Below, piece after piece: positions 866 to 42,960 of a stretch of DNA of 51,289 nucleotides. Source of the stretch: Spirogloea muscicola (lineage: Eukaryota; Streptophyta; Zygnematophyceae; Spirogloeales; Spirogloeaceae); assembly GCA_009602725.1 (NCBI GenBank), contig WELB01000039.1:224331-275619 (forward strand). The letters are read 5' to 3'. A program made the position numbers and the translations under genes. Position 1 is the stretch's first letter; each line of letters opens with the position of its first letter. The notes below the pieces were generated by a model. It ran no database searches. It was not told where the DNA came from and saw nothing but the letters and a program-made list of their open reading frames with translations.

Positions 866-1073
866 GGCGGCGGGACGAGGCAGTGATGGTGGAGCTAGTG
901 AGCGGTCGCGGAGGGGGGAGGAGGAGCGGGGCGGGGAATGGTGTCAGGGACGAGGCGCGGCGCGGCGGCGGAGGTGGTGCTGCCGGGGTGGTCTGGCCCG
1001 GGGTGAGCGGAGGGGCACTTTCGGCGCACTCCTGACACGTCCCCCCGCAGCTTGTGGGCCCCCCCCTCCCTCC

Positions 1074-1150
1074 GTACATTTGTCCAATATGCGTGCCTTT
1101 GTACTTGGCCACACATGGCCTCCCCATCTCTTAAAATACACGCATTTCCC
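1074..1150 (+). repeat. Direct repeat, left copy of a second LINE-tail type
   Basis: A block of about 77 bp starting GTACATTTGTCCAAT and running through the small hairpin TTGGCCACACATGGCC to CATCTCTTAA recurs at 1563-1638 with few differences. The two copies flank a divergent LINE 3'-end ORF. The simplest reading is that this is the 3' tail of an earlier insertion of the same family. Confidence 0.7.
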
Positions 1151-1638
1151 TCCACACACATTGCTGGCCACGCAGTGGGAGGTGCTGAGCAGAAAAAGCT
1201 CCGACACTACTCAGACTACCCCCGCAGTGACCACCTCCTCCCGGCCGCAATCGACACTTTCGGCTGCTTGGGTCCTCGCTTCCATACCCTACTCGAGAAC
1301 ATAGCGAGTCTGGGATATGCACGACGCGAGGATATGCTCCCAGCCCAGATGGGTATGCCGGCAGCCTATCTGTCATTTCTGCGACATCGAGTGTCAACCT
1401 GTCTGCAACGAGCTCAGGCGTATGCTCTGCATCAGAAAGCTGGTCGAGCCTTAGCTGCTGGCACAAGAGCTAGTCAATTGCCGTCCGGTATTCGAGCGTC
1501 AGCTAGCGACCTCTATGTGCTGACTCGTGGTTACTGAGCGGGTCAGCTTAGCAGCAGGTGACGTACATTTGTCCAATGTGCTTGCCTTTGTACTTGGCCA
1601 CACATGGCCTCCCCATCTCTTAATATACAAGCATTTCC
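1151..1638 (+). mobile_element. Divergent RLE-LINE 3'-end fragment (family B)
   Basis: An open frame from about 1187 to the TGA at 1535-1537 encodes KLRHYSDYPRSD, AAIDTFGCLG, then QKAGRALAAG and the ending LYVLTRGY-stop. It aligns by eye with the endonuclease C-terminal region of the longer copy (KELKYADHPPED, AIDTHGTLD, RAGRALAAAS) but is clearly diverged. It is followed at 1563-1638 by a tail containing the GGCCACACATGGCC hairpin instead of the GGCTGGC-GCCAGCC type used by the other copies. It is 5'-truncated, as is usual for LINE insertions. Confidence 0.65.
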
Positions 1639-2305: not shown

Positions 2306-2592
2306 ACATGTACCTTTAAATCCTGTTTAACCATTGGATAAACCTCCCCAACCGACCGTATAACCTTAAGAAGGATGACTGTACTTGCCCTCCGCACCTG
2401 GCGGCTCCGGCCGCCCACCACTCGATGCACGCGTTCCCCCAAGCGGCGGGCGTTGCGAGCGGGCCCCCTCCCAGGAATTTACTAAGCAAGCGAACATCCT
2501 TCGTGGGTGCTTGCTTGCTTCGCGGGCCCCCTTCTCGTACTTTGTTCATTCTTTCTTGGGCTGGCTTGTCCAGACCCTATCCTCAATGGGCC

Positions 2593-3252
2593 TTTTGCAG
2601 CTCACATGCTCAGGTGCGCACGGGGCGGGGAGCGGACAGGAACACACGACCTGCTGCGGAACGCCATGTTTGGAATCTTTGTCGAGGCCGGTCACACGGT
2701 GGCGCTCGAGAGTACCAGCATCATGCCTCCGACCGCTGGGGCGGATGGCCGCGTCCACACCCGGCGGGCCGATCTCGTCGCCAGCGCGCTCGGCGGGGGG
2801 CCTCGGCTCATCGCCGATGTGGTCACGACTGACTGTGTTGTCTCCGGCAGCGCCAAGTGATCGTCGGAGGAGGCGGGCTACGCAGTCCGCCAAGCGGCGG
2901 ACGCCAAGGAACATAAATACGCGGACCACCCGGTGGGCGACGAATTTGTTCCCCTTGCAGTCGACGAACACGGGGCCTTCGGCGCAAAGTGGCTCGACTT
3001 GCTTCACCACCTTGCGCAGCAGGCCGCGGCCCGCCGCCACGGGCAGCAGGGTGAGCAGCCCGGCTTCAATGTCGCCGGGTCCCTCGCGCAGGTCTTCCGC
3101 ATGCGGTTGGCCGTCTCGCTTCAGCGGTCCCTTGCGTTCGCAGTCCACTTGCGCGCAGGCCGAGCTTTGGCGGCGGCCTCCGGCTTCCGTCAGGGCGACG
3201 TCTTTCCCCCGGCTAGCTACTCCGACTTGCATCTCCTGACTAGAGGTTCTGA
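2593..3252 (+). pseudogene. RLE-LINE 3'-end fragment with in-frame stop (copy 2)
   Basis: One frame runs from the zinc-knuckle-like segment HMLRCARGGERTGTHD through the endonuclease core (RRADLVA, then LIADVVTTD) to AKEHKYADH, FVPLAVDEHG and RAGRALAAASG, ending near 3250. It is broken by a TGA at 2858-2860; the upstream and downstream parts stay in the same frame, so a single nonsense change explains the break. The RLE fold uses a PD-(D/E)XK-type active site. The visible D...DVVT...K spacing fits this, but the assignment is by pattern only. The reverse-transcriptase part is missing, so this is a 5'-truncated dead copy. Its 3' tail continues to about 3660. Confidence 0.8.
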
Positions 3253-3660
3253 GCGTCCTCTGGCTGATGTCTTCGTCCTAGTCCAAAGGCATGGACTGTA
3301 GTGTAGTTCCTTTTCGGCACCTCTTTCTTTGGCTTGGGATATTGTCCATTGTTTTTGGGCTGGCTTTGCCAGCCACTCTTCTCTATGGGCGAGCACTCTT
3401 TTTTTGGCTTGGGATATTGTCCATTCTTTTTGGGCTGGCTTTGCCAGCCACTCTTCTCTATGGGCGAGCACTCCTTTCTTCGTGGGCGCGCACTTCTCGC
3501 TTGCACAGCTGTGTGAACGAGCGCTTGCGGCCCCTTTGGGACCTCGTCCATGCTTGCCGTGCTGGCCTCTCACGAGAGCCTCTCCTTTGATCATTCTTTT
3601 TCGGGCTGGCTTGTCCAGCCCCTATCCTCAATGGGCGAGCCCTTTGTTCTCACGAGAAAG
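3253..3660 (+). repeat. LINE 3' tail: tandem 75-bp hairpin units
   Basis: GGCTTGGGATATTGTCCATT starts at 3331 and 3406, giving two near-identical 75-bp units. Each contains the stem-loop GGCTGGCTTTGCCAGCC and ends with a CTATGGGCGAGCAC block. A further diverged unit (GGGCTGGCTTGTCCAGCCCC, then CAATGGGCGAGC) lies at about 3600-3645. The position directly after the ORF of copy 2 makes this its 3' untranslated tail. Confidence 0.75.
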
Positions 3661-5360
3661 AGTCCCCCAATAGTAGGCAGTGCCTGCGAGAAGAAGTGGC
3701 TCTCCCAATGGCGGCAAGGGCTGTGAGAGGCCAGCCCAAAAGGCAGCCCTCGGCCCTGTCGTGCTATATCCCGTCGGTGGCTCATTGGTGTCGGTGCTGA
3801 CAAGGATGCAGAGGTGGCTTCTCACGTGGACATTCAAGGGTGCGTCACTTTCTAATTTGGTGTGAATATGGGGTCGCGAGCACGGCATCTCCAACCCGCT
3901 TCGGTCAGAAAAGATACGTTTGATCCGGTCGGCGTTGGAGCATCATCCGGATCCGGCGCCAGCGCCTCGCCCATCAACGGTGCGTAGGCTCCTTCGCCGC
4001 CATGGTCAATGAGTGCCTCGGCGTGCAGCGCATTGCCCTCTTGCCACCTTCGCCACACAAAGCCCCTGGAGTATTAAGCCAAGAAAGCTCACGAAAGCGC
4101 GTCGAAGGCGTGATATGCCTTGATGAGCCGTGAGGAACCGGTAGGGCAGTGGTGTAGAAATGGTAGGTAGTGGAAGTGAGTTTCGGGCTACACTAGCCTT
4201 GAGGCTGGGGAACCCAAATGGGCCCAATGGCCCACCCCAACAAACAATGTCATTCTTTATTTGACCAAGCATAAAGGGTGTGGAGGGCCGGAGCCGAGCA
4301 ACTCGCTCGGCCTAGTAAATGGAGATCGGAAGGACAAGTCACAAGCAAAGCGTACGAACAAGAAAACCAGAACGAGCCAAAAAGTAAATTGTTCATTTCA
4401 TTCCAAGTTCTCAGTTGCCAACCACGTCATCTGTTGGTTACTTCTATTCTGTTACTTTCTGTTGTGTTGTTTTCATTCGACATCAAAGAAGTCCTAAAGT
4501 CCTCGAAGACCTTCTTTCAGCTCAATCCATTGAGTGCCCACCATGTGAGATTGATTTGGTTGCCTGCTTCTGCACTAAGCTGACTTCTCGACGTTATATG
4601 GCAGTCGACGCCCTGTGGCACGACAGCCCTTTGAAAGTAGCAGCATCCGCCATGGGCACAATCAGAAATCTAATGTACACATTTTCCCGCCGGCAGCTGC
4701 AAAGCGGGGGGGGGCCTGACAGGCGCCCCTGGCGGGCCAGGCGCCAGGGGCGGGCCCCCGAAGCTTGCGCCCGCCTGCCCGGCCCAGCCTTGCGGCTCCC
4801 GTGCCGCGGCTGCCAGCCGCAGCCACAAGACCACGTGCCGCAGATCGCCACGTGGTCCTGCGCCGAGCGCGTGCCGCGCGGCCGGGAGCGCCCCAGCTGC
4901 TTGCCGCGTGGCGACGAGCCCCGCCCTGTGGAGAAGGGCCTTCTGTTAGTGCCCTATTAGGGCTAACCGAACCCCCAGAACGCCGGAGCATTACCGTCAC
5001 TCAGTTGGGGCTCAGGCGACGACGAAGCTTGGGGCTCGGACGACGCGCCGCGCTACATCCTCGCCTTCTTCCCTATGGCAAAGACGGCCTTCTTGCTCAT
5101 GGCGGTGACGGCGGCAGGCTCCGGAATGAAGCAGGCCAGCAGCGAATCAAGGAAGGTGGCGTGGGTGCTGGCAAGCAAGGAGGAGCAGTGGGCAAAAGAA
5201 CAAGGGCTCGCCCATTGAGGATCGGGGCTGGAGTCTAATAGTCAAGCATGTCGTCCACGTGTGTGCTTGGGTGCAACACACTGTTGTGGAGCGGCGATAT
5301 CGTTCGTGCCAGAGCCGCGCTGTGTGGAGCTATAAGATCTGACAAGCCCTCAATTGGTCT
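3661..5360. other. Intergenic, no supportable gene
   Basis: The stretch holds an inverted hairpin-tail unit (about 3705-3760, with GGCTGTGAGAGGCCAGCCC), unassigned sequence to about 4680, and a very GC-rich block (4690-4930) with a run of ten G (4706-4715 area). A minus-oriented copy of the CCTCAATGGGCGAGCCC tail block lies at about 5190-5235. None of the open frames here resembles a family I know. Confidence 0.5.
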
Positions 5361-9443: not shown

Positions 9444-9897
9444 AGCCCATGTAAGGAATGCTGTGGATCGCCAAGCCCGGGCTGCCGGCAGAGCAAGGAA
9501 AAAGCAAGGAGGCATTGGAATGGGGCAGCAACGGTAAAAGTGAGCAACGGTTGCTGCAGGGGCAAGGGTCCAGAGGTCCGAGGTTGGGTGAAGAACTCAC
9601 CTTTCGCAGCGCCTCCTTGCCTGCCATGGCGCACACGCCGTGTGAGCGCTGGCGAGGGCTTGTCTCCTCTGATACCATTGGAAGAGGATTGCTGTGGATC
9701 GCCAAGCCCGGGCTGCCGGCAAGGAAAAGCGGGGAGGCATTGGAAGGGGGCTGCAAAGGTAGAAATGAGCAACGGTTACTGCAGGGGCAAGGGTCCAGGG
9801 GTCCGAGATTAAGTGAGTTCTTCACCCAACCTCCCCGCTTTCCCTTGCTCTGCCGGCAGCCCGGGCTTGGCTATCCACGGCATTCCTTACAGCCCGT
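9444..9897. mobile_element. Non-autonomous inverted-repeat element with internal direct repeat
   Basis: The left end (9451 on, GTAAGGAATGCTGTGGAT...) and right end (to 9890, inverted GTAAGGAATGCCGTGGAT...) are inverted repeats sharing about 55 bp, including CCAAGCCCGGGCTGCCGGCA. A direct copy of the left arm starts at about 9692, and both halves share AGCAACGGTTRCTGCAGGGG. Flanks AGCCCAT (9444-9450) and AGCCCGT (9891-9897) could be a 7-bp target duplication with one mismatch. No transposase is present. Confidence 0.55.
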
Positions 9898-10224: not shown

Positions 10225-10579
10225 CCTGCCCCTTCACCCTTGATCGAAAGAAAGTGCTCGCCCATGGAGAAGAGGGGCTGGCAAAGCCAGCCCAAATAGA
10301 ATGGAACAACGTCCAAAGCCAAAGAAGGAGGTGCCGAAACAGGACTACACTACAAAACACGAGACGATGCAGAGGGAGCTCAGTACCCGCGAGTGAGCGA
10401 CATCAAGTCCGAGTAGCTCGCTGCAGGGAAAGAGGCACTCCGCCGAGACCCAGAGGCGGCAGCCATAGCACGGCCCGCTCGCGTGTGGACGGCGTGGGCG
10501 AGGGAGCGTTGAAACGAGACCGCCAGGCGCATACGGAATACCTGGGCGAGCGAACCGGCGCGTTGAAGCCGCCGTTGAA
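10225..10579 (-). mobile_element. RLE-LINE 3'-end fragment, minus orientation (copy 3)
   Basis: Read on minus, 10573-10380 encodes AGSLAQVFRMRLAVSFQRSL, RAGRAMAAASG and the ending LMSLTRGY-stop (stop at 10380-10382). Its tail continues leftward to about 10225 with the hairpin GGCTGGCTTTGCCAGCC and the CCATGGGCGAGCAC block. It is very short and 5'-truncated. Its truncated end abuts the truncated 5' end of the plus-strand copy at about 10580-10610, so the two lie head to head. Confidence 0.75.
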
Positions 10580-10599: not shown

Positions 10600-12321
10600 G
10601 CGGCGGCACAACCGGGAGTCCTACTCCCCACCTTCGCGGACGACACCACCATAGTCGGCCCTCCGGAAGACGTGGCGGCGGCCTTCGTCACCTTCGAGCT
10701 GCAGCTGGCCACCCTCGGCCTGTCCACCCGGGCGTCGAAGTGCGCGGCTTGGTCTCCCTGCAGCCTCCCACCCACCCTGACGCTGCCCACCGGATGCCTG
10801 ACTCCAGCAGATGGCTTCACCCTGCTGGGGGTCCCCATCGGCGCGCCGTCCTTCGTGGAGGGGCAGCTGGAGCCCGCCTCGCGAAGCATCTTCAGCCTGC
10901 GGCCCGGCTGCCCGAGCTGGACGATATGCAGCTGTCGTTGGCCATGTTGACCAAGGCCATTGGGCAGCGGCCCCAGTACTTGACGCGGGCCACTCCGCCG
11001 TCCCTAGGGGCGTTGGCGGCGTACGCGAATTCTAACGCAGGCATGGTGGCGAGCTTGGCGGCCCTGGGCCGCCACCAGGGCTTCCTCCAGTCGCCAGCCG
11101 CTAATCACCAGGCGGCGCTACCCCTCAGCCACGGTGGTCTTGGCCTGCGCCCGCTCGCCCGTTCTTGCCGGGCGGCATACCTCGGCAGCTGGGCGCAGAC
11201 TGCCGCCTCCGTGGCCCAGCGCTTCATGGTCCACGGCCGGCGTGCACTGGAGCAGGCGGTGGTGGAGGTCGACACGGGCGCGCTGCCGTTCCAGTGTCGC
11301 TTCGCTCCGCCCACCAGGAGCTGCTCGCGGCGCACCCGGACCTGGCAGGCCAGGCGGTCTCCTTTGCGCACCTCGCGCACACCGCTGACCTGCGCGTCCA
11401 GGCGCGCTTCGCGGCCGTGGTCGACAAGGCCGCCTACACCACCGCCGTGCTGCAGCTCCCCGAGGCCGACCTGCGCGGGCGCGCGAGACTTCAATCGGCC
11501 TCTTCCCCGGAGGCAGCGGCGTGGCTTCAGGCCCTCCCCATCAACGACGCCCTCACGCTCCCCCGGTGGATTCGCACTGCCGTCCACCGGCTCCTGGGAC
11601 TGCCGCCTCCATGTCTCCAGGGTGTGCGACAGTGTGAAAGCGGCGAGCTAGGGGCCGAGTTTGGGGAGCTGGCCGCTCATGTTCTGCGCTGCGCCCACGG
11701 CGGCGAGCGGACAGCGGCCCACGACCGCCTCCGTGATGCAATGCACTGCATCCTGGTGGATGCTGGCTACTCGGTGGCAGCGGAACACTCCGGCGTCATG
11801 CCGCTCCAGGAAAGGGCTGACGGTCTCCACGCCCGTCGCGTAGACCTGGTGGCCACCCCACAGGCCGGCGGGCCACGTCTTCTCCTGGACGTGGTGACCA
11901 CCGACGCATACGACCGCTCCCACCCAGCCCAATGTGCCACCAAGGCGGGGTATGCGGTCGCCTGCGCCGCTCGGGCAAAGGAACTCAAGTACGCCGACCA
12001 TCCGCCGGAAGACGAGTTCTTCCCGCTGGCTATTGACACCCATGGGACTTTGGACGCTCGGTGGCTCGAGCTGCTCAACCAGCTCGCCCGCCACGCCATC
12101 GCCCGCCGCTTCCATGGGAGCCCATGGACTTTCCTGCAGCCGGGTCGCTGGCGCAAGTGTACCGCATGCGCCTGGCCGTCTCGCTGCAGAGGTCTATGGC
12201 CCGCGCGCTGCACCTGCGTGCCGGCAGAGCCCTCGCTGCTGCCTCTGGCTCTGGCCAGGGGACCCACTTCCAGGAGCCTAGCGTCTCTGACCTGGGCTGC
12301 TTAGCAGGGGTTACTGAGTGA
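10600..12321 (+). pseudogene. RLE-type LINE, reverse-transcriptase C-terminal part plus endonuclease (copy 4, longest)
   Basis: The polyprotein can be followed across three frames. The first has the RT catalytic box FADD at 10633-10644 (LPTFADDTTIVG). The second, from about 10900, has LPELDDMQLSLAMLTKAIG. The third, from about 11290, runs through a CCHC-like knuckle (HVLRCAHGGERTAAHDRLRD) and the RLE core (ARRVDLVA, LLLDVVTTD, AKELKYADH). A last shift near 12120 leads to AGSLAQVYRMRLAVSLQRSM and RAGRALAAASG, with the stop at about 12319. At least three frameshifts in 1.7 kb mean it is inactive. The RT N-terminus is missing (5' truncation). RLE-bearing LINEs (R2-like and Dualen/RandI-like lineages) are known; which lineage this is needs a phylogeny. 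The tail after 12321 lacks the GGCTGGC hairpin seen in other copies. Confidence 0.85.
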
Positions 12322-16015: not shown

Positions 16016-17850
16016 TCAGGATGTTGTCCTTCTAGCCTCTCTTCTTTTGGCTGCAGCTTCCCGGCTCCAGTGCCAGAGGGTGTTGACGAGTTTGTGCGGC
16101 GACAACCGAGTGGCAGCTCGTGGTCGTCGCTGCCATGAATGCAGCACCCTGCTCCTTGCAAGCAGAGCTTCTTGCTCTGGCGTGATCTCTTGAAGACGTA
16201 CAGTCAGCATGGACTTGGGCCTTGTCCTGACTCCTGCCTTTCCCCGACCATGGATTGACATCCTTTTGAGGAATATGCCTTTGCCAACGAAGGCCTCCGC
16301 TGCATTGCACAGTAAGATATGGAATGATGCACGAAATTACTGACAGCTGACAAGGCATCAGCAATAATGTCGACAAGTGTATGTCACCACATGCTTGCTG
16401 TTGGGTAATCTCTTGCCTAAGACATAATGTGGGCCTTGCAGTTGATATAGAACATATAGTATTACTTAACCAGTGCTGCAAACATATTGAGCACCTCCTG
16501 CCAGATCTTCATCACTTAAAGATGTCACAGCACAACATCTTCGCACTGCTGGAATGGCAACCTGCATATACATATAGTGCCACTAAGGTGCAAGTGCTTT
16601 CTCACCCACAACGAGCTTGCTGACATCAAGTCCATGGTTCTGAGCTCCATTTGCCTTGGCTGCCGTGACCACCTGCCAACCAAGCTTGCTAGTATCAGCT
16701 TACATCTCCACGTTGACGATGACTTTGGGACATGCAACGGACTCGACCAGCTGAGAGTCCCTCTACACCTAGCCACTATGCAATAGTGGCGAGCAAATAC
16801 CATGGCGAATACCAAACAAGTACACTAGCACTACCTTTGCTACTGTCTTCGCAGCCCGCTTTGGAGAAACCGCCAGCTGTTGGAGGGCCTCCTCGACGCG
16901 CATGCCCCTCACCAGTGTCGCCACCAGATTGAGCTTCTTGGGGCTCTGAACAAGCATGACTTGACGTGAAGGTGTGCCCATCTCTGAAGGTGCGCCCATC
17001 TCCAAATGACCCATCACAGCCCAGATGAAGTCATTGCAGCGGCAGTTACAGCAAAGTAGAAAATGTGCAATATACATCACTGCCAGGCAATCACTGAGAC
17101 CAAGTACACCCACCATCTTGATCTGTGTGAGAACAGCCCTGGCCTCCCGAGGCTGCAGACTGCCCTCACCGACAAGGGGCCGAGGCCTCTGGAGGAGCGG
17201 CGACACCAGCGGCACAGGAATGCTTCCAAGAGAAGGGGCTTGTGCAGTTGGAGCCAGTGCGCTGCATGTCGAGCCCAGCCCCTGCTCGCATGTGAACAAT
17301 GCACGCCAAGTGGTCAGCCAGGCTGCATATGCATGGAGTAAGCAGCAAGGGCAGGGCCAAGTAGGACCTTGTATTCAAGGGTGCTAGGTGCTCACGGCAT
17401 ACCAGGGACCAAGAAGGGGTCCTTACTGCCCATTCCCATTTATGCTAACTTCGAGTCTGGACCTAGTACATCACAGATTGTGGGTTTAAGGGTTTAGGGG
17501 ATGGAAGCTCTAAGTGGAGAGTTGAAAAAAGGGCGGGGTTTGCAGGTGGAGCAAGGGCAGGGAGGCCCGCAGAGCAGCGACGACCCAAAACCCTCATACT
17601 GTAAACCATAAAATCCAAACCCTAAGCACTCGGGCGCGCAGCTTCACATTACTGCCGAGGCAAGCGCAGGCCCGATATGGTCATCGGGACAGTGCCGTAG
17701 CTGACAGACCCAAAGCCCTGGCAGAGCACGTCTGGCCAGCAGCTCACCCGGCTCGGCTGCGCTGCCACCACCGGCAGTCGCGCCGAGGGCCCCGGCGACG
17801 CCGGCGGCGGCCGCGGCGGGACGGCCGGCGAGGCGCAGGCCGCGGAGCAT
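16016..17850 (-). CDS. MRPL22: Mitochondrial large-subunit ribosomal protein uL22m
   Basis: Five minus-strand exons: 17850-17748, 17322-17114, 16945-16835, 16672-16606, 16299-16016; phases match and total 257 residues. The uL22 core is clear: AVLTQIKM/SPKKLNLVATLVRGMRVEEAL, then NGAQNHGLDVSKLVV, then the conserved loop HGRGKAGVRTRPKSMLTVRL. An N-terminal leader (MLRGLRLAGRP, Ala- and Arg-rich, no acidic residues in its first 30) and a long C-terminal extension, rich in Arg and Trp, point to the mitochondrial form. uL22 lines the peptide exit tunnel. Exon 1 is the least certain: it was chosen for its strong GTGAGC donor, phase fit and a CCG-rich leader like those of neighbouring genes. An alternative first exon (ATG at 17597, MRVLGRRCSAGLPAL) with a weaker donor is possible. 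Confidence 0.88.
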
Positions 17851-19575
17851 CTGGCAGCGACGGCGGCGGCGACGGCGACGGCGGCGGTGGCGGCGGCGGC
17901 GGCGGCGGCGACGGGGCGAAGAACAAGGCTAGGAGCGTGAGACCTAACCCTAATCGTCGTCTCCGAGTTATTAATAAATAAATAAGAAATAAAAAACAAG
18001 CGGCTGCTGATATTAAAGAATCGGCTGTAAAATGCCAGCCAGATGCATACATTGAGGACGCTGATCAAAAGAAAGAGAAACAGCTCTTCCGATTTACGGC
18101 AATGGCTGTGAGAGGCCAGCCCAAACGAACGTACAAGACACAACGAAGTGAGCTCTTCCACAGGGGGCGGGGGCTGTCAATGTCCAGCCCAGACAGAATG
18201 GACAAGGATCAAGCAAGAACACTCTTCAAGTAGAGGGCTATGGCTGTGCATGGTTCCGCCTCATCAGTTGAGCATGTGCGGCCCACTCTCTATTTGGCAA
18301 GCTTCAGTCCGCCTTACACAAATCTGGCGTGGTTGACAAAGCCCACCTTGCTGGGTAGGAAAGGCATAGAATGTGGGCTTGCGCACTGCGTGCATCAATG
18401 CTCATCCTGACATTGAGCAGGCAGCAGAGCTGACAGTCGCGCAAATATAGCTTGGGTGCTTGCTTGGTGTGTTGCCAATTCAGGTGCTTGCTGATGGGCC
18501 CATCCGGTTCATCTAGGAGAGCTTGCTCGCTTCATGATGGCAAAGGACAAATGTATCACGGTCGTACTTACAATCACCTGCCAAAGAGCTCGTTGCTTAG
18601 CTACAGGCTCACCTGCTGCACAGGCTCATCCTTGTGGCTCGCCCCAAGTGACAGGCCACCATTCAACGGCCAAAAGACAAAGCTCTTCAGCTTAGACAAC
18701 CCCCTCGGTTGTTGCCTCCTATTGATGCGACTACAATGGTATCTCAGACTCCCACGCCACAGCCCTGCCACTGCATGCAGGTCGGGTGTTGGTTGCAATC
18801 TCTAGCTAGTTCTGGCTTCTTCCTAGGTCTAGCTTGGCGCGTTTGCTGTTCCAGGGTGGCCTTAGGATGCTTTGCAGCCCCCGTCAATCTTCGCAGGTTA
18901 ATCCTCTGCAGCTATTTGCCTTTGTAGCTCCTCTATCTGGGTCAAGGACTTAACATGAGGCTGTACTTGTCCAAGAGTTTTCCTGACACATTTTACACTG
19001 TGAAGGCCGGTAGAAAGGAGAGGCATATAAAAGAAAAGACATGGGCACGGAGAGGATGACATAAGTACCCATATAGATCCCTGCCTGCAATCGGATTTGT
19101 ATGTGCCCACCTATGGGTACTAACGTCACGCAGTTTCGTTAGTTACCTTAGCTTAGGGAGTTTGTTTCAGGTTGCCCTTTTCCCCCCTTTTTTCGCATTA
19201 GCTTTTGCCTGAACAATGGGTTAGCTTGGACGGCCATCCTTTCATTCCATGCGCACCTCGCGCATGATTTCTCCCTGCTGTCAAGCCGACAACCAATGGC
19301 CGGCCATGCAAGCCATGCAGGAGGTCCAGCCACCGACTGCCAACCGCCCCGTGTGCACGTCCATCGCCTGCGCAAAAGGCCGAGAGAAACGAGCTCTTCC
19401 AATAGGGGGCGGGGATGTGAAAGGAAGAAAAGCTAGCCCAGAAAGAATGACAGCGCTGAGACACAACGAAGCAAGTACCACGAAGAGAAGTGAGCTCTTC
19501 CACGAAGGATGGTCAACTCAGTAACCTCTAGTGAGCAGCCGCTTGTCAGACTGCAAGCCTGTGAGGCCTTCGAAC
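17851..19575. other. Intergenic with hairpin-tail repeats
   Basis: Contains CCG-rich sequence (17870-17930), an inverted copy of the 141-193 tail block at 18001-18052, two minus-oriented hairpin units around 18085-18200 (with GAAGAGCT boxes), and another near 19395-19500. A short minus-strand open end (SLTQIEELQRQIAAED-stop at about 18898-18950) preceded by a TGTCAG acceptor might be a relic exon. No gene can be supported. Confidence 0.45.
18001..18200 (-). repeat. Dispersed hairpin-tail units, tandem, minus orientation
   Basis: On minus, GGGCTGGACATTGACAGCCCC and GGGCTGGCCTCTCACAGCCAT occur about 75 bp apart, each followed by GGAAGAGCT. Next comes a copy of the block ATGCATCTGGCTGGCATTTTACAGCC found after the LINE ORF at 141-193. 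No LINE coding sequence accompanies them, so they look like independent tail copies. Confidence 0.65.
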
Positions 19576-19584
19576 CTTGTCAAT

Positions 19585-19920
19585 TCTTCTCGGGCTGGCT
19601 TATTCACAGCCATTGCCCCCATTGAGAGAGCCACTTCTCTCTATCTCTATTTCTACCAGCCTTCAGTCAATCTGGCCGCGCTTGCTTATTTATTGCCAGG
19701 CGATTGCTTTGCATCGCCGGGCTGGTCGCGCCCTTGCAGCAGCTTCTGGCTTGCGCAGCGGGGTTGCTCTTCCTCCCCTCAGCTCATCTGACTTCCTACT
19801 GCTGACACGGGGGTATTGAGGGCGCCCTGTCTGCCTAGCCTTTGGCTCCGTCATGAACACCTGTATGCATCTGGCTGGCATTTCACAGCCGATTCTTTCA
19901 TATCAGCAGCCGCTTTCTTT
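19585..19920 (+). mobile_element. RLE-LINE 3'-end fragment (copy 5), near-identical to copy 1
   Basis: A hairpin unit (GGGCTGGCTTATTCACAGCCATTGCCCCCATTGAGAGAGCC, shown in part, from about 19591) precedes a 5'-truncated ORF end: HRRAGRALAAASGLRSG to LLTRGY-stop at 19817-19819. Bases 19721-19920 equal 1-200 except one position. The two copies diverge abruptly after 19920. Confidence 0.8.
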
Positions 19921-20508
19921 TTCTTTCTTAGCCCAGAAAGGGGGAACAAGGATGGCACTCCCAGTAATGAAGAGCTTCTGCTTGTGCTACAGACTGATGC
20001 AGGGTGCGAGTGTCAACCGGCCCCACTGGGGGGGTGGCACCGGCAGCCGTCGTCGGCTCCGCCCAGCGCCGCCGCCACCGTGTTCGCGGCGCCTGTGTCC
20101 CCCGCTCCGCGCCCGGCGCCGGGGGGCCCGGATCCGCCGCCCCCGTAAATTCTTTTCCGACCAAAAGCGGCCATCCCCCGCATCCACCGCCCGCCCGCTG
20201 CCGAGCGGAGCGAACGAACGAACGGGCTTTTCCCCATCACCGACTGATTAAGGGCTTCCCCCATTGGGAGTGCCACTTCTCCCCCATCATCCGACCACCA
20301 GCCCACCGTCTCCGGCCGCCCCGCTTGCCCCTCTAGAAGGGAAAAGGCCGCCCCGCCCCCACCGGCTCCGGCCACAGCCATCGCCGCCCCCCNCCCCCCC
20401 CTCCCCCTCGGCCTGCCGCTGCCGCAGTCTCCGCCCGCCTGACGCCGCCGCCGCCGTCGCCGCCGCCGCCGCCGCCCCTGCCGCCGCCGCGGGAGGCCGA
20501 CCGCAGCC
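19921..20508 (+). promoter_or_regulatory. GC-rich leader/promoter region of GMPP
   Basis: After the LINE end the sequence becomes C- and CCG-rich up to the ATG at 20509, with an N inside a C run at 20393. No separate gene is supported. By position it must contain the GMPP promoter and 5' leader; no TATA-like box was found. Confidence 0.45.
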
Positions 20509-22582: not shown

Positions 22583-24106
22583 GGGATTGCAAGTGTATAA
22601 ACGCATGAGTTAGCACAGACCAATAGTGGACTTCTAGATCAGAGGCACTTCCACACTTGAGCTTCGTGTGAGAGTAGGTGCAGCACTGACACTACCCAGC
22701 AACAGAGTTTCACTAGCAGCAAGTGTAGGTCGCCTGTCCCCTTCAACTACAGGTAGAGACAGGCGTTGCAGCCTGACTTGCTGTGTTTTGATTTCGTCGA
22801 CGATGTACATGGGTGTTTTATTAGTGTGTTCCGAATGTCTTCTTTCCCTTGCAAGCCTTGCGCAAACAGTAACCTCGGTTGCTGAACACCAATTTCCAAA
22901 TTTCACATAACAAGGGCATGGTTGGCATGGCCGGTGAGTTGTGCTGATGCCGTGGAAGCTCTTCAAAGAGGACGCTGTCAGCTGTCAGCTCCGCGAAGCC
23001 AGGTGAAGCAGACAAGATAGCCTCTTCCAAACATTATGCAGCTTTAGCAGGTAGATCTATGAACCTTTAAGAGGACACAGAAGGTGCGCGTACAACAATA
23101 CTTTCATGAGGAAAATGAAGAGGATGATAGATATAGCTGTTCATAAGCGGCGGGGGTTTTTCATGATTCAGCTTCACTAGACTTAACAAGAGAGCCAGCA
23201 AGACGAGGCCACCACTTCACGACGAGGACGCATTGCCCTTATAAGTGGGAGATTACTTGGAGCTTCTCAAGTTGCTGTAGGCTGTAAGAAATCCATGACT
23301 AGGGGCCAAAGGAGTTGGTCGGGGAATCCACTGCCAGCGGGAAGGACAGAGGGAAGCTCCAACACGGACAGTAGCTCTGAGATTCCAGCCTCGCCCAGCA
23401 TAACGCACGGTCAAGATATAGGGCTTACCTTGTATGCCTCGCCTTGGCAGAGACGCAGAGCGCAGCATACATTGTTGTGTTCTCTGTAGAGTGTCCTCCT
23501 GATGGTGAATGCCTGCACGCATCTTGCAGCTGTGGGCCCTTGAGCTTTCTCATGCATGATGACTGCAGCTGTTGACTAGGATTGTCGGGCACTCGATCAT
23601 AGTAGCCACTTGCGTAGCTGCATGGTTTGCGATTTGTCACCCCTTTCAAAAGTTTCCCTCTCCAGTTGGGCCTGCATTTCACAGCCATCACCCCCTTTTC
23701 AAGAGCTACTCTTTAATGATGTATCTCGACCCTTCTGGGCTGGCTTCTTCTTGTTGGGGCCTTCCCTCTTGACCTTGTCCTAACCTTCTAGCTGGCCTTT
23801 CACAGCAACCGCACCTTGTGGAGAGCATTTGGAGAGCTTCCAATTTTAAGCTGGCCTCTCACAGCCATACTCACTTAACAATTATTTCCTAAGCTGGCCA
23901 GTCACAGCCATCGCCCTCCACTGGACGAGTCTTTCACTCAGGCCCTCCATCACCCGATACACACTCCATCCCCTTCGGAAGAAGAGCTTCCAGTTGAGGA
24001 ATGCGGCTCACAGGCACATTCCCAGCATATTACAGCCAACACCTTGCTGCTTCTTCTTCATTGGCTTACATCCGAAGAGCTCGTTGTGCTAGCTTCAGCG
24101 CTTTCC
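22583..24106. other. Intergenic with an array of hairpin-tail units
   Basis: 22583-23640 shows no recognisable gene. From 23640 to 23960 at least four units of the type TTGGGCCTGCATTTCACAGCCATC / AGCTGGCCTCTCACAGCCAT follow one another, with no LINE coding sequence in between. Confidence 0.5.
23650..23940 (+). repeat. Array of hairpin-tail units
   Basis: Units centred near 23670, 23795, 23860 and 23905 share GGCYNGC...TCACAGCC (a short imperfect stem-loop) followed by a C-rich segment. They match the LINE 3' tail elements and precede LINE copy 6. Confidence 0.65.
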
Positions 24107-24400
24107 CTGTCCGTCAGGGCGACGTCTTTCCGCCGGCTAGCTACTCAGACTTGCATCTCCTGACTGGAGGTTACTGAGCGTACCCCTGGATAATGTCTTC
24201 GTCCTAGTCCTTCGCACTCTGGCTCCTTCAGACCTTGTCCATTCCCTTGGGCTGGAATTTCCCAGCCACCAGTCAATCTGGCCGCGCTTTTCCCCTGGCC
24301 CCTTCGAACTTCGTCTTTCGTTTTACTGGGCTGGCCTCTCCCAGCCACCGCCCTCGCCTGGAGCGTCTTTCTCTCTTCAATGGGCGAGCCCTTTTTTCAG
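24107..24400 (+). mobile_element. RLE-LINE 3'-end fragment (copy 6) with tail
   Basis: Only about 24 codons remain (VRQGDVFPPASYSDLHLLTGGY-like ending, stop at 24176-24178), nearly identical to the end of copy 2. The tail follows: ATGTCTTCGTCCTAGTCC as in copy 2, then two hairpin units (GGGCTGGAATTTCCCAGCCACC near 24250 and GGGCTGGCCTCTCCCAGCCACC near 24330) and a CAATGGGCGAGCCC block near 24378. Confidence 0.75.
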
Positions 24401-34142: not shown

Positions 34143-34496
34143 GGGGGTGAGGATTCGCGGCGCTGCAGCGGGCAGTTGGCCCTTGATCACGCTAACCCGG
34201 ATCAGTTACCGGCGCCGTTACGCTTAACCTAACCCGCTTGCCTCGCCCAGGATTTTTGAGAACAAAAAAGACTCTTCCAGGAGAGTGCTTTGGCTGAGAT
34301 AGGCCAGCCCATTTCTATTTGTATTGCTTTTGTATTGTTGGTATTATAGTTATAGACGGCCAGTTTAATGGATGCCGCCTGACNGACCAGCAGCCGGCGG
34401 TGGCGGCGGCGGCGGAGTCTGCGCCGCCGCGGCGTTGCGGCCGTCGAGGCGGAGGTCCTCCGGTGCCGCCGCCGCCGGCGGGGCGGCGCATGAGCC
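34100..34496. other. Spacer between SRC2-like gene and LSM6, with repeat and gap
   Basis: Contains a (GGC)n run at 34110-34145, a minus-oriented hairpin-tail unit (GGGCTGGCCTATCTCAGCC, with a GGAAGAGTC box, about 34268-34315), an N at 34384, and the GC-rich LSM6 leader. Either the repeat insertion or the collapsed gap accounts for the missing 5' exons of the minus-strand gene. Confidence 0.55.
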
Positions 34497-34971: not shown

Positions 34972-37097
34972 AAGAGAGACTGCCATGCACACTCGCCATG
35001 ACTGTGCCAACCTCCAGACTGCTGATACACATAGGCTAGCTAGCCTTCCAGGCCTGGAATTAGCAGTGGCACAGGTTGTCCATATGGACCACCACGGTTG
35101 TTAGGACGAGAGGCAGCTTGTATTCTTGTTTGCCTGGAAGATGAGACTCTGAAGTCATTGGGTGGGCTCGGTCCAGTGCCTCAGCCTGCTGTGGTTGGTC
35201 TCTAGAAGTGCACATTGTGCACAGAGTGTCAGTGGCCGCACCCTCCCGTGCTACTCTTGCTCGTGTGAGGCTCTCAAGGTGCAAGCGGAGCAGTACTCTA
35301 ACAGGTGAACAATGTGTTGCTGGCTAGTAGGATGTCAGGGACTGCATGCCCTGAGATCTTGGCACACTAGTTGAAGCTTCCCTATGCTTCCCTTGTGTCA
35401 CGCACTGCGCTGGCCGCGCTGCGCCAGCAGCCCACATGGACTGGAAGTGCTCCTGTGATGCCCATACAAGCTGCAAGCACCCATCTGACAGTATTCTTCC
35501 TTGCATGGTATCACCAAATGAAGCGGCTGTTGGTGTCCCCAGAAAGAATGCAATTGAACCTGCTCGCTAGTGTGACAGCACAATCAGCTGCTGACTTGGG
35601 CTACAAGTCCTTCATTGGAGGAGCTTTTGCTAGTAGGCTTTCCTTTCTCTAGGATTGCAGGCCTTCAATTCGTGCATCACAACGCCCCAGCTTTGCCCTG
35701 CATCACAGTGCTGGAACTTTGTGCATTGCAGGTCCGGCATCTGGGTTCCGCACCTCGCTTGATCAATTCTTCTCTGCTATCTTGCGAGTTTGAAAGGCAC
35801 CCAACAGCGAGCAACTCAAATCCTCGTCACCTCCGCAGTTGGACATGGTGGCTAATCCCGCCTCCTTGCGTCCCTTTCTAGCCTCAATATATCTGAGTTC
35901 TCCCTGCTGAGGAGGGTGTTGACGGGGCAGCACTCGACCTGATGCACCTACTACTGTCAGTGTCGCCTCCCATCTTTGCAGGACTTGGCTGGTGTATCTT
36001 TTCTTCTAAAAGCATTTGACTGCCCTTGCAGCAGCAACACTTTAGTATGATCTGCAATTCGTGCGGCTGGCGCCTCTCCTAAGTTAACAACTTTGTCACC
36101 CTTGCTGAACTGGCCATTCACAGCCACTGTTCTGATTCTGGAGCCTCTTAGCGCTCTTGATGTAAGGGTTTGCCTTATTTGATTGCCCTGACAAGCAACC
36201 AAAACTGCACAATGGCATATCTGCGTTGACGCGTCCTGATGCCAACGCGTCCTGATGCCAACCCATTTGAGGCCTTCTTTGCCCTTCTTTTACTTACATG
36301 AAGCCACGCCTAGGTACTGCATTGCTCTAGCACTTAAATGGATCAATACTTGCTCAATCAGTCTGCAACTTTCTGCAGTGCATCTCAGGAGTGTAGTTGT
36401 CAAGTTGCTATATTAGTTAAGCAGATTGAGAACTAGAGAAAAGAGAGGAGGATGTCACCATTGGGCTGAATCTATCTCCTCTCTATGGGCGCGCACTTTC
36501 TTAAAATATTGGGTGAATCTTTCCAGTCCATGGACTAGCACACTATCTAACAATAATGATCAGAACGTGAGCAATGCTCATAACACTTGTCATCTTACGT
36601 CTCTGCAATACAGGTATGACAGGACAGCTTCTCATTACCCTTTGTCACAATGCCGATGCTGAGGAGAAGTGGCATACCCAGTATCTTATGAAGCCTGCGG
36701 CAGGCTGGAGACAAATGCAGAGGAAGGCTGCACACTTGACGTTCGCACCAAGTTCTGGACCGCTGACAGCCCGCCTGCTCAAATCCGCTCCTTGGCAGGC
36801 GTCATCTTATTGAGTAGGACTTGTCCAGTTTCAGCCCAGATGCTATGAGAGCCTGCGTGATGTCATTGGCGTGATCTGATATTTCAAGCAGCGCTTCGCT
36901 CAAAGATGGATGCTAGCAGGTTAAGTTTGCCGGTAAGTGCAATATTGCTTGAACTGCGTAACACAGTCGTGAAGGACAATCACCTTCTATTCTGGGTGCA
37001 CTACTACCACATTAGTATGACACAGCCAAGGTCTCAAATTGGAGGCCTCTAGCCCTTGTATAAGAAGATCTTGGTTGCAGACTGCTCTGACCCATCG
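34972..37097. other. Gene-poor spacer between LSM6 and CHLD 3' ends
   Basis: No complete gene was recognised. There is a hairpin-tail unit near 36106-36125 (GGCCATTCACAGCCACTG) and a 16-bp direct repeat. A plus-strand open stretch after a CAATACAG acceptor at 36612 (LLITLCHNADAEEKWHTQYL) could be a relic or orphan exon but matches nothing I know. Confidence 0.45.
36229..36260 (+). repeat. Two tandem copies of a 16-bp unit
   Basis: ACGCGTCCTGATGCCA occurs at 36229-36244 and 36245-36260, exactly duplicated. Confidence 0.85.
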
Positions 37098-40000
37098 CTA
37101 CCGGCTCTTGAAGTCCGTGAGCGCCTCCTTAGTAGCGGCAGATACTACAGCATCTGACGCATTTGGGAGGTAGTAATATTTCCCTGAGGTACAGAACATG
37201 AAAGTGTCAAACATCTTGAATAAGACAATACTGAACTCATCACTTGTACGGGCTTCACAAACAAGCACAGTAGATATGTGGCATCTAGGCGGCATCTGGC
37301 AGAGATCAATTTATGAAAGTCCGGAATGTCACCATTTGCTACTCGTGCTATTTCCTTGGCAAAGCCGGTGGAGATAAACTTGTTCTCTGTGTCGATGACT
37401 AACAATGACATCCCTGACTTCAATATCTTCGCAGCAACGTCAAGTATCTCCTCCTGTACGACAATACTATGTCAAGCAACTCCTGACCAATAGCGCTATC
37501 TATATTCTTAAGCTTCTATACAAATTTCATATTGGAAAGCTCTCCCATTCAAAAAACGTTTTGGAAGCCCTGTCGCCCAGAAGGTGATTTTTATACACAT
37601 GATGAAATCAATGCAATATGCATGTCTTAGGACAGTGCAATGTTCTCACCTCTACAAAGAGTGACAAAGGGCACTGACCTTAAGCTGTGCCTGCGTAGGC
37701 TTGGGAGCATCTGGCGCATTGGCGTCAGGATCACCCACAGACTTCTTCAGTGATACATTAGCCCTTCCATCTGTGATTGCCACGATCATAATGCGCCCCA
37801 CATCACCGCTCTTTTCTGCGTTGAGGCCAACTCGTACAGCCTGCTCGTGCACCGCAAGTACTGCTGCTTAAGAAAGTGAAGAGGCTTGATACCACATGTA
37901 CACAGGACACAGAACATGACCGATGTGTGAACCACAACTCGTATGACCAGAGTCAGGGGCTAAGCTTCTGACATCTATTTTATCAGTTTGACAGAGAGAC
38001 AGCAATCCGCTGCATGGTAGAGCATAACATATGGTGTAGAAGGTGCACCATCTAAACCAGGCAAATGCTGCACAGAAATATAACGTGGGTATTCCACCCG
38101 ACAAATGAGGCATATTCTCACTCAACAGACATGCAGCTAGCCAGTGGATATCGTTAAAGAGCAACGTGACCGGCAAGGTTGTTGGTGTTGTGGACGAGAG
38201 ATCTTGCAAGGCACTCACGGCGGATGACATTAAGTTGCTGTGTCTCAGGGTATGGATGTATGATATGAGAGCGTAGTGAAGAGCAAGTAGCTTTGAAGAG
38301 GGCTCTCATATTCTACATCCATACCCTGAGACACAGCAACTTCAATGTCATCCGCCGTGAGTGCTTGCAAGATCTCTCATCCAGTCCACAACAACAACAA
38401 CCTTGCCGGTCACGTTGCTCTTTGACGGATATCTACTGGCTAGCTGTATGTCTGTTGAGTAGGAATATGCCTCATTTGTTGGGTGGAATACCCACGTCAT
38501 ATATCTGTGCAGATTTTGCCTCAACTTTCTAGATGCAGCAGTTACTGCATCAACATGTGGTCTTGTAACTCTAGGCGCAGGCTTCTTGCAAGAGGTTGCT
38601 GGTTGTGATAAGAATAATCCATATTTGAAGACATCCTCCGTGTATCTCATGGGGCAACATAACTTTAACTGTCTTGAAGCACGGATTGTCAGTTTAGCTG
38701 GTGGGCAGAAATGCTCACGGTTGTCAAGCCGTGGGCTAATGGAGATCCACCACCACACGGTAACCTATCCAATCGCTTCCTTGCCATTGCAATGGACCGA
38801 GAGGGTGGTAGAAGCACCTCCGCTGCATCGCCCCTGAAAGGTATGATGGATACCTGACCAAGAAGGCACCTCCGGCAAGTCAATGTCTTGGAGTCCTGAA
38901 GAGTCACTGTGGCTTACAGGAGCGCAAATACCAGCCACAGCATAAAACCGTATATCAAGGTCCGAGGTGTATCCTACTTTGACCAAAGCATCCTGATGAT
39001 GTTATACTCAGATGTAGATTGCAATGGTGACACTTGTCTGGTCTCACTTGATCTCGGCTCGTATAAGATTCTGCCAGCAACTGCATTGCTGCCCCCTTAG
39101 CATTATTCATTCTGTTCAACGCCATACTCCCGCTCGCGTCCACGACGAAGATGACCTGCAACATATTACAGAACCAGGCATCTTGACAACCTGTGCATTC
39201 ATAGCATAATTATAGGATCGTCACATTTTCGGCAGAAGCCTTGAACTCTTACAAAAGGAGTCTAGACAGTTGACATGTTCCTCGGTGACTTTACGTAGCC
39301 CAGCACTTGTATGCGCTTGTGGTACGAAATTTACCAATGCACCGGCTTTCCTCGCCATACGCTTGGCTCGCATGTCAATCTGCTCCACGTACACCTTCCT
39401 AGAGCTTCCATTCTCCTCCCCTCTTTGTCTTCTTAGCTTTTGGTACGGTGCAGCTGCCCTCAAAGTGGCGTCCACAGCTAACCTCCTCACAGGACCCTAG
39501 CGTCACCCAGCACCACATCAGCGATTAAGTCCTGCGCTGCCCTTTCCAATATGAGGCTGCTGGCTCAAGGACGCTGCTGGGGATGTATTGGCCATGTCAT
39601 CTACAATCGGTGTCGCTCTGAAGCTTGCACTGAAACAATGAGGGTCCGCCACAGGACAAACGAAGCAGGTACTGCAGCGCCAGGAGGATCACTTGTCTCA
39701 ATCTGCAATGGAGATGCTCCTAAGGTAAGCGAGCTATGATGGCACCTTGGGGAGCATCGGCTTTATGTAGCGCCCGCGGTCTTCTGAGAAGATGACATTC
39801 TTCGCCCGGCCAGCCTTGCCTTTCCGGCGCTGCGCCATCTGGGCAAACATCAGGAGCTGGGGATCCACCATGCCACCCTCTGCCCCAAAGACGAACTCCT
39901 CTGGAACCTGGTTTGCCTGCTCCTCCTGGTCATCCTCGTCCTCATCCTCCTCCTCCTATCCTCTCGCTCAGAACCAAAGCAAGCCCATCAGCGTTCTGTT

Positions 40001-42915: not shown

Positions 42916-42959
<44 letters not shown>

Positions 42960-42960
42960 N
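42916..42960. other. Run of 44 T followed by N (assembly gap)
   Basis: The T run ends in an N and then unrelated C-rich sequence. It interrupts the 5' end of CHLD exon 1. Homopolymer plus N strongly suggests an unresolved or artificial join. Confidence 0.8.

Follow-up and report, generated by a model that had tools for sequence, protein, structure and literature searches.

Short units with a hairpin recur along the 51,289-nt stretch of DNA analysed here (the window; GC content 56%), some of them behind the ends of LINE-like open reading frames (ORFs) and others apart from any such frame. Are these units the 3′ tails of LINEs, or a separate, SINE-like parasite using such tails? An initial sequence-only reading had considered the latter. 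We find that the module is a real repeat that is rightly tied to tails of elements that we take to be LINEs, and that its scattered copies look like broken-off LINE tails rather than a separate parasite. All evidence on the module comes from this one window. In the following, a minus sign after a coordinate marks the minus strand.

The hairpin module

The module is ∼60–75 bp long and is made up of a pyrimidine-rich lead, a GGCTG...CAGCC hairpin, a TGG(G/A)NGAGC box and a CTTT-like end. Its core motif CTGGCYTYTYACAGCC occurs 11 times in the window at ≤2 mismatches, as compared to 0.42 expected occurrences. By themselves the boxes occur at or close to chance level (CAATGGGCGAGC, 11 seen vs. 7.4 expected; TGGAAGAGCTC, 6 seen vs. 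1.8 expected), and the significance rests in the whole unit and its hairpin core, not in the boxes alone. The box at 3629, given earlier as CCCATTGGGCGAGC, is CAATGGGCGAGC.

A profile built from 18 seed units gave 23 matches in the window at E ≤ 0.011, a number that includes the 18 seeds themselves along with five new units (144, 5231-, 18252-, 19449-, and 23652). When the loci were removed one by one, each along with its close relatives, the profile still recovered 17 of the 18 seeds at E < 0.01, the sole exception being 18040 (E 0.026). Twenty first-order Markov shuffles of the window yielded no profile match at E < 0.01 and two at E < 0.1. All 12 places named in the sequence-only reading carry a profile match at E ≤ 0.011, the weakest being 5231- (E 9e-4) and 19449- (E 0.011). 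The proposed period of about 75 bp is seen at 3321–3470 only, where two units are 97% identical; elsewhere neighbouring matches lie up to 121 nt apart. Nothing in the window reached the Rfam gathering scores. Five weak Rfam matches (up to E 5) were returned for 1–36300, and one of them, to the RT-3 RNA (E 2.5), overlaps the 19384–19449 unit on the opposite strand. Searches of viral contigs, genome contigs and phages with tblastn gave no confirmed relative outside the window.

The 6-bp stem was compared across 18 units. Standard pairs fill 82% of the cells vs. at most 54% when the arms are slid against each other, and 7 units have the sixth pair. Pairing was much the same after shuffling (132 of 500 shuffles scored at least as high), and none of the six pairs was altered on both sides, which is a weak test because the stem hardly varies. 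Compensatory changes are not seen; the stem is thus kept as sequence, and covariation lends it no support. We also folded 17 modules along with the different tail at 1562–1638, 18 sequences in all. Three had z < -2.5, all of one subfamily (3336, 3411, and 10313-), and several were near 0. In some folds the TTGTCCAT lead paired with the ATGGGCGA box to form an outer stem. This candidate was rejected, since cognate flanks paired no better than swapped ones (p 0.88, 12 representatives).

LINE-like ORF ends and their tails

We identified eight ends of ORFs in the window, all from a single protein family. Those on the plus strand belong to ORFs at 1–96, 1151–1534, 2588–3247, 11642–12303, 19688–19816, and about 24085–24174, and those on the minus strand to ORFs at 10383–10559 and 19516–19550. 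Protein matches at E > 0.01 were dropped with the exception of 19516–19550, which has a weak protein match (E 0.99) and an exact ORF-end motif in its DNA at 19516–19535. For this motif 0.04 matches are expected at ≤3 mismatches, a figure to be read knowing that the motif was written from ORF ends including this one. Six of the eight ends are followed on the same strand by a module 48–89 nt downstream, the ends at 1534 and 12303 being the two without one. This confirms that the units follow LINE-like ORFs, as had been proposed. It also means that the units at 19395–19500, previously counted among those standing alone, are not alone, as the minus-strand ORF end at 19516–19550 lies upstream of them.

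Neither a reverse transcriptase (RT) nor an APE domain was found with 30 Pfam queries on chosen frames, some of them duplicated, the copies in the window being 5′-truncated fragments. The uL22 query described below was the sole one to reach the cut-off, and two others gave E 0.17 and 0.49. We therefore infer that the element is a LINE from its C-terminal ORF, its 5′ truncation and its tail.

The ORF-bearing copies differ in length and in the number of modules. At 1–200, cut by the window edge, the ORF end is followed by a module (match at 144). A 5′-truncated ORF end with its tail module at 19688–19923 is 99.5% identical to this copy over 19721–19920, and the two LINE ends are apparently recent copies. 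The 5′-truncated C-terminal fragment at 2588–3247 has an internal stop at 2858–2860 and is 58–59% identical to the 11672–12140 frame. Directly upstream of it lies a module at 2541–2591 (profile match 2541–2604; 92% to 3585–3636). Its ORF end is followed by two 75-bp modules in tandem at 3321–3480 (97%; profile matches 3336–3404 and 3411–3480), and then, at 3537–3651, by a doubtful module (3537, E 0.07) and one of another subfamily (3587–3651, E 7e-11), which lies 340 nt past the ORF end. On the minus strand, the ORF end at 10383–10559 carries a single-module tail (10245–10571; 74% to 3061–3403), and the one at 19516–19550 is followed by one or more modules (19380–19550; profile match 19449–19384). 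Just downstream of this tail, at 19300–19376 on the same strand, a short ORF fragment is recognised by 15 residues (19309–19353, 73%, E 0.002). On the plus strand at 24085–24399, a 5′-truncated ORF end reaching to 24174 (24110–24210 is 92% identical to 3186–3284) precedes two modules (24228 and 24306) and a doubtful third (24374, E 0.14).

At 1073–1638 (plus strand) a divergent LINE consists of a tail-like 77-bp repeat (1073–1151), the ORF fragment 1151–1534, and the 77-bp repeat again (95%); the second repeat carries a hairpin different from that of the module. The longest fragment, at 10900–12318 (plus strand; start at about 10900 estimated by eye), contains a post-RT-like region, a cysteine/histidine stretch and a possible endonuclease C-terminus, and the profile search found no module after it. 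AlphaFold models of its C-terminal region gave the order H-E-E-E-H-E-H at low confidence, with mean pLDDT of 47 and 66 (two models). We take this order to fit the topology of PD-(D/E)XK endonucleases. Two Foldseek searches with these models gave no match at E ≤ 0.001. TDP2 chains were on top, and R2 chains ranked 18, 44, and 45 in one search and were absent among the best 50 matches listed in the other. Based on these models, the C-terminus of the element may be a restriction-like endonuclease.

Lone units, chains and their possible origin

We sorted the 23 profile matches by their position relative to ORF ends. Nine follow an ORF end, singly or in a chain (144, 3336, 3411, 3587, 10313-, 19449-, 19864, 24228, and 24306). 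Another six stand in chains that run up to an ORF fragment (2541, 19570, 23652, 23770, 23843, and 23875). Among these chains, the one at 19570–19686 (plus strand) consists of a module and a second module in which homology starts at the hairpin (about 19660), and the one at 23645–24079 (plus strand) has four units by profile (23652, 23770, 23843, and 23875, all at E < 0.003) and two doubtful ones (23729, E 0.48; 24025, E 1.5). The description of 23650–23940 as a place without LINE coding sequence holds only in part, as this chain stops 147 nt before an ORF fragment.

The remaining eight matches stand apart in five groups: lone modules at 3687–3742 (minus; 87% to 19592–19638), 5194–5231 (minus), 34258–34313 (minus; refound when left out, E 3e-5) and 36090–36155 (plus; refound when left out, E 4e-5), and a chain of four units at 17991–18252 (minus). 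Two of these groups resemble tails that belong to ORF-bearing copies. The final, 3′-most unit of the 18 kb chain is 92.8% identical to 19862–19930 and 96.3% to 142–195, the tails of two such copies, and 5197–5232 is 94.6% identical over 37 nt to 3614–3650, a module of the chain that follows the 3247 ORF end. For the groups 3742-, 34313-, and 36090 the self-comparison gave no close match to an ORF-bearing tail. That all lone units are LINE remnants is therefore unproven. In every unit of the five groups the 3′ part of the module is kept and the 5′ limits vary (profile starts 3–37); homology starts within the hairpin for 5231-, for 18252-, and for the unit at about 19660 on the plus strand.

Eleven pairs of neighbouring matches lie no more than 200 nt apart. 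In 9 of them both units share a strand (label permutation, p 0.03), and random placement of the matches gave 2.4 such neighbours on average and 9 at most. Moreover, 4 of 7 testable 5′-truncated ORF starts lie ≤160 nt downstream of a same-strand module, 3 of the 7 within 60 nt. With 3.2% expected per start this corresponds to a binomial p of 3e-5, which is only a guide because the starts were set by eye, the one at 19376- rests on a 15-residue match, and the clusters are not independent. The starts with no module ahead are 10640-, 10900, and 19555- (3 of 7). This count excludes the copy at the window edge and also the ORF fragment 1151–1534, the latter because the 77-bp repeat ahead of it is a separate tail type defined by the pair itself. 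The ORF fragments that start after modules suggest either end-to-end copying or insertion onto older tails.

Subfamilies are mixed within chains: at 18 kb the final unit corresponds to the 19.7 kb LINE tail, and two earlier units carry GGAAGAGCT boxes. The 18 kb and 19.4 kb arrays have three blocks in common in the same order (17, 13, and 18 nt; 94–100%), with 2 of 5 better block matches falling off this order by pairing the first unit of one array with the second of the other. This resemblance suggests that a multi-module tail may have been inherited. In the 75-bp tandem at 3321–3470 similar pyrimidine tracts are found at the tail end and at the unit start, as expected under re-copying or DNA slippage alike. 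At 19.7 kb, the closest matches in the window to the two units ahead of the nearly identical LINE piece do not exceed about 89%. Few copies bear on this point, and it weakly hints that the LINE might have been inserted later onto an older tail.

Several explanations can be weighed against these data. A reading of the lone units as non-autonomous, SINE-like elements that have their own promoter and borrow the LINE tail would agree with the occurrence of module-only copies in five isolated groups, and with the 3′ end that these copies have in common with LINE-like ORF ends, as in SINEs that share their 3′ end with a LINE. The SINEX elements listed for Chlamydomonas also share RandI LINE tails, several of them having heads of unknown origin (PMC3747384). 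No common 5′ head emerged, however, when the 200-nt stretches ahead of six groups, lone or leading, were compared: the 15 pairs scored 14–22, the two pairs at 22 being at the 95% point of random pairs, whose mean is 18. One strict B-box pattern had zero matches in the window, and ARAGORN found no tRNA. In the flanks of seven elements the longest exact direct matches were 5–8 nt, as in random flanks, a test that decayed or inexact target-site duplications (TSDs) escape and in which the match for 5231- is the unit with itself and that for 3742- has one side inside the unit. A 52-bp TSD was considered around 2592–3584, but its upstream copy fits about equally well if it is taken for an entire tail carrying a small deletion. 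With variable 5′ limits, neither a shared head, B box, tRNA nor clear TSD among the handful of copies compared, and a stem free of compensatory change, the SINE reading is not supported here, and we regard it as distinctly unlikely.

Ordinary DNA processes have a somewhat better claim. Slippage or unequal exchange could duplicate modules, and chains could arise by chance nesting in a retrotransposon graveyard; the 97% identity of the 75-bp pair with its similar pyrimidine tracts, as well as the close spacing of 23770, 23843, and 23875, fit this. Chains of mixed subfamilies, the excess of ORF fragments after modules and the same-strand bias speak against it, and on balance we find it a rather unlikely account. 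The 77-bp repeats (95%) flanking 1151–1534 and the 52-bp repeats (92%) flanking 2592–3584 might suggest that the tail is the terminal direct repeat of an LTR- or Penelope-like element. The repeats of these two loci differ in length and content, however, and self-comparison at E ≤ 1e-3 gave no matching upstream copy for 10245–10571 and 19688–19923, which makes such an element very improbable.

We consider it fairly probable that the module is the 3′-terminal recognition module of a set of related LINEs, that the lone units are aborted copies, and that the chains arose by template switching or tail insertion. The reverse transcriptase of the element would bind the module at the 3′ end of the RNA and start target-primed copying there. 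Because copying would begin at the 3′ end and often abort, in some cases at the hairpin, many copies would consist of the module alone or of the module with a short piece of ORF, and the former would be the lone units. Additional modules and head-to-tail chains could form when copying of one template carries on into another template's tail. Alternatively, an already chimeric RNA could be copied, the same tail could be recopied, or a new copy could land at the end of an old tail. Once made, a two-module tail might be inherited. A more far-reaching version, in which the LINE machinery favours its own 3′ tails as landing site or next template, so that truncated copies dock successively into same-strand chains and module-only copies of 50–75 nt spread without a head, appears unlikely to us.

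Related systems and the surrounding sequence

The claim that no described family has this arrangement was too strong. SINEX elements of Chlamydomonas share tails with RandI/Dualen LINEs, and (CTTT)n ends are given for a RandI-tailed SINE and (CTATTT)n ends for RandI LINEs (PMC3747384). The tails in the window are pyrimidine-rich and CTTT-like at the 3′ end, not poly(A), and they form no clean repeat array. With RandI/Dualen and SINEX they have in common a probable green-lineage host, non-poly(A) 3′ ends and short elements with a LINE tail (PMC3747384). Dualen differs in that it encodes an APE beside an RLE (PMC4640811), whereas the element described here is known from 5′-truncated C-terminal fragments. 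Some LINEs need their 3′ end or a stem-loop located there, and a short 3′ hairpin is a feature of stringent-type LINEs such as UnaL2, SART1, and some plant L1 elements, the tail repeats of UnaL2 being thought to permit template slippage (PMC3747384). The stem of these plant L1 elements is backed by compensatory changes, whereas the module in the window is repeated and its stem shows none. Clusters of nested copies are formed in green algae by the Zepp and Zepp-like (ZeppL) LINEs (PMC3446292; PMC8226300), which resemble the present chains in this respect. Zepp is, however, an L1-type element with poly(A) ends (PMC3747384; PMC8226300), and the elements in the window end in a hairpin module and a pyrimidine-rich stretch.

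SINEs with RandI/Dualen tails and nested LINE clusters in green algae are thus already known. In the available text of the literature on LINE tails and algal LINEs we found no description of tandem hairpin modules or of ORF fragments docked on tails, and the chain arrangement of the tail modules is moderately interesting. In vitro, the R2 reverse transcriptase copies physically separate templates continuously, and the need for such template jumping in life has been doubted (PMC8857657). By analogy with R2, if the chains result from end-to-end copying, the genome would here preserve traces of template jumping by a LINE enzyme, a process described in vitro, and would also show how a minimal LINE tail could turn into a mobile unit, possibly an initial stage in the making of a SINE. 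Otherwise the locus would be a LINE graveyard of the ordinary kind, whose clearly marked 3′ end would be of use in the annotation of algal repeats.

The window contains an exon of a uL22 gene at 16772–17374 on the minus strand (Pfam PF00237, E 2e-10). Its top match among solved structures is the Arabidopsis mitochondrial uL22 (44 residues, E 5e-10). As the exon is nearest to a plant mitochondrial protein, a host of the green lineage is likely, and we regard the host as probably algal.

Several other features were observed in the window. A tandem repeat of 181 bp (1.8 copies) at 1660–1993 has an internal hairpin of the CTGGCAAACCGA...CGGTTTGCCAG type. Degenerate ACCCTAA telomere-like repeats at 2084–2117 lie near a 12-bp GTGCGACGGACC array (2193–2307). 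At 9450–9891, two repeats (9454–9591 and 9685–9816) are 86% identical and enclose a minus-strand TGGTATCAGAGG, which we take to resemble a tRNA-Met primer-binding site; the region is a possible remnant of an LTR retrotransposon. A long foldback at 38059–38521 has nested inverted arms of 94 nt (90%), 44 nt (95%), and 41 nt (95%), and in its layout looks like a foldback transposon or a long-hairpin precursor. Finally, a poly-T run of 44 nt is followed by a single N at 42916–42960, and the five single Ns of the window may be collapsed gaps.
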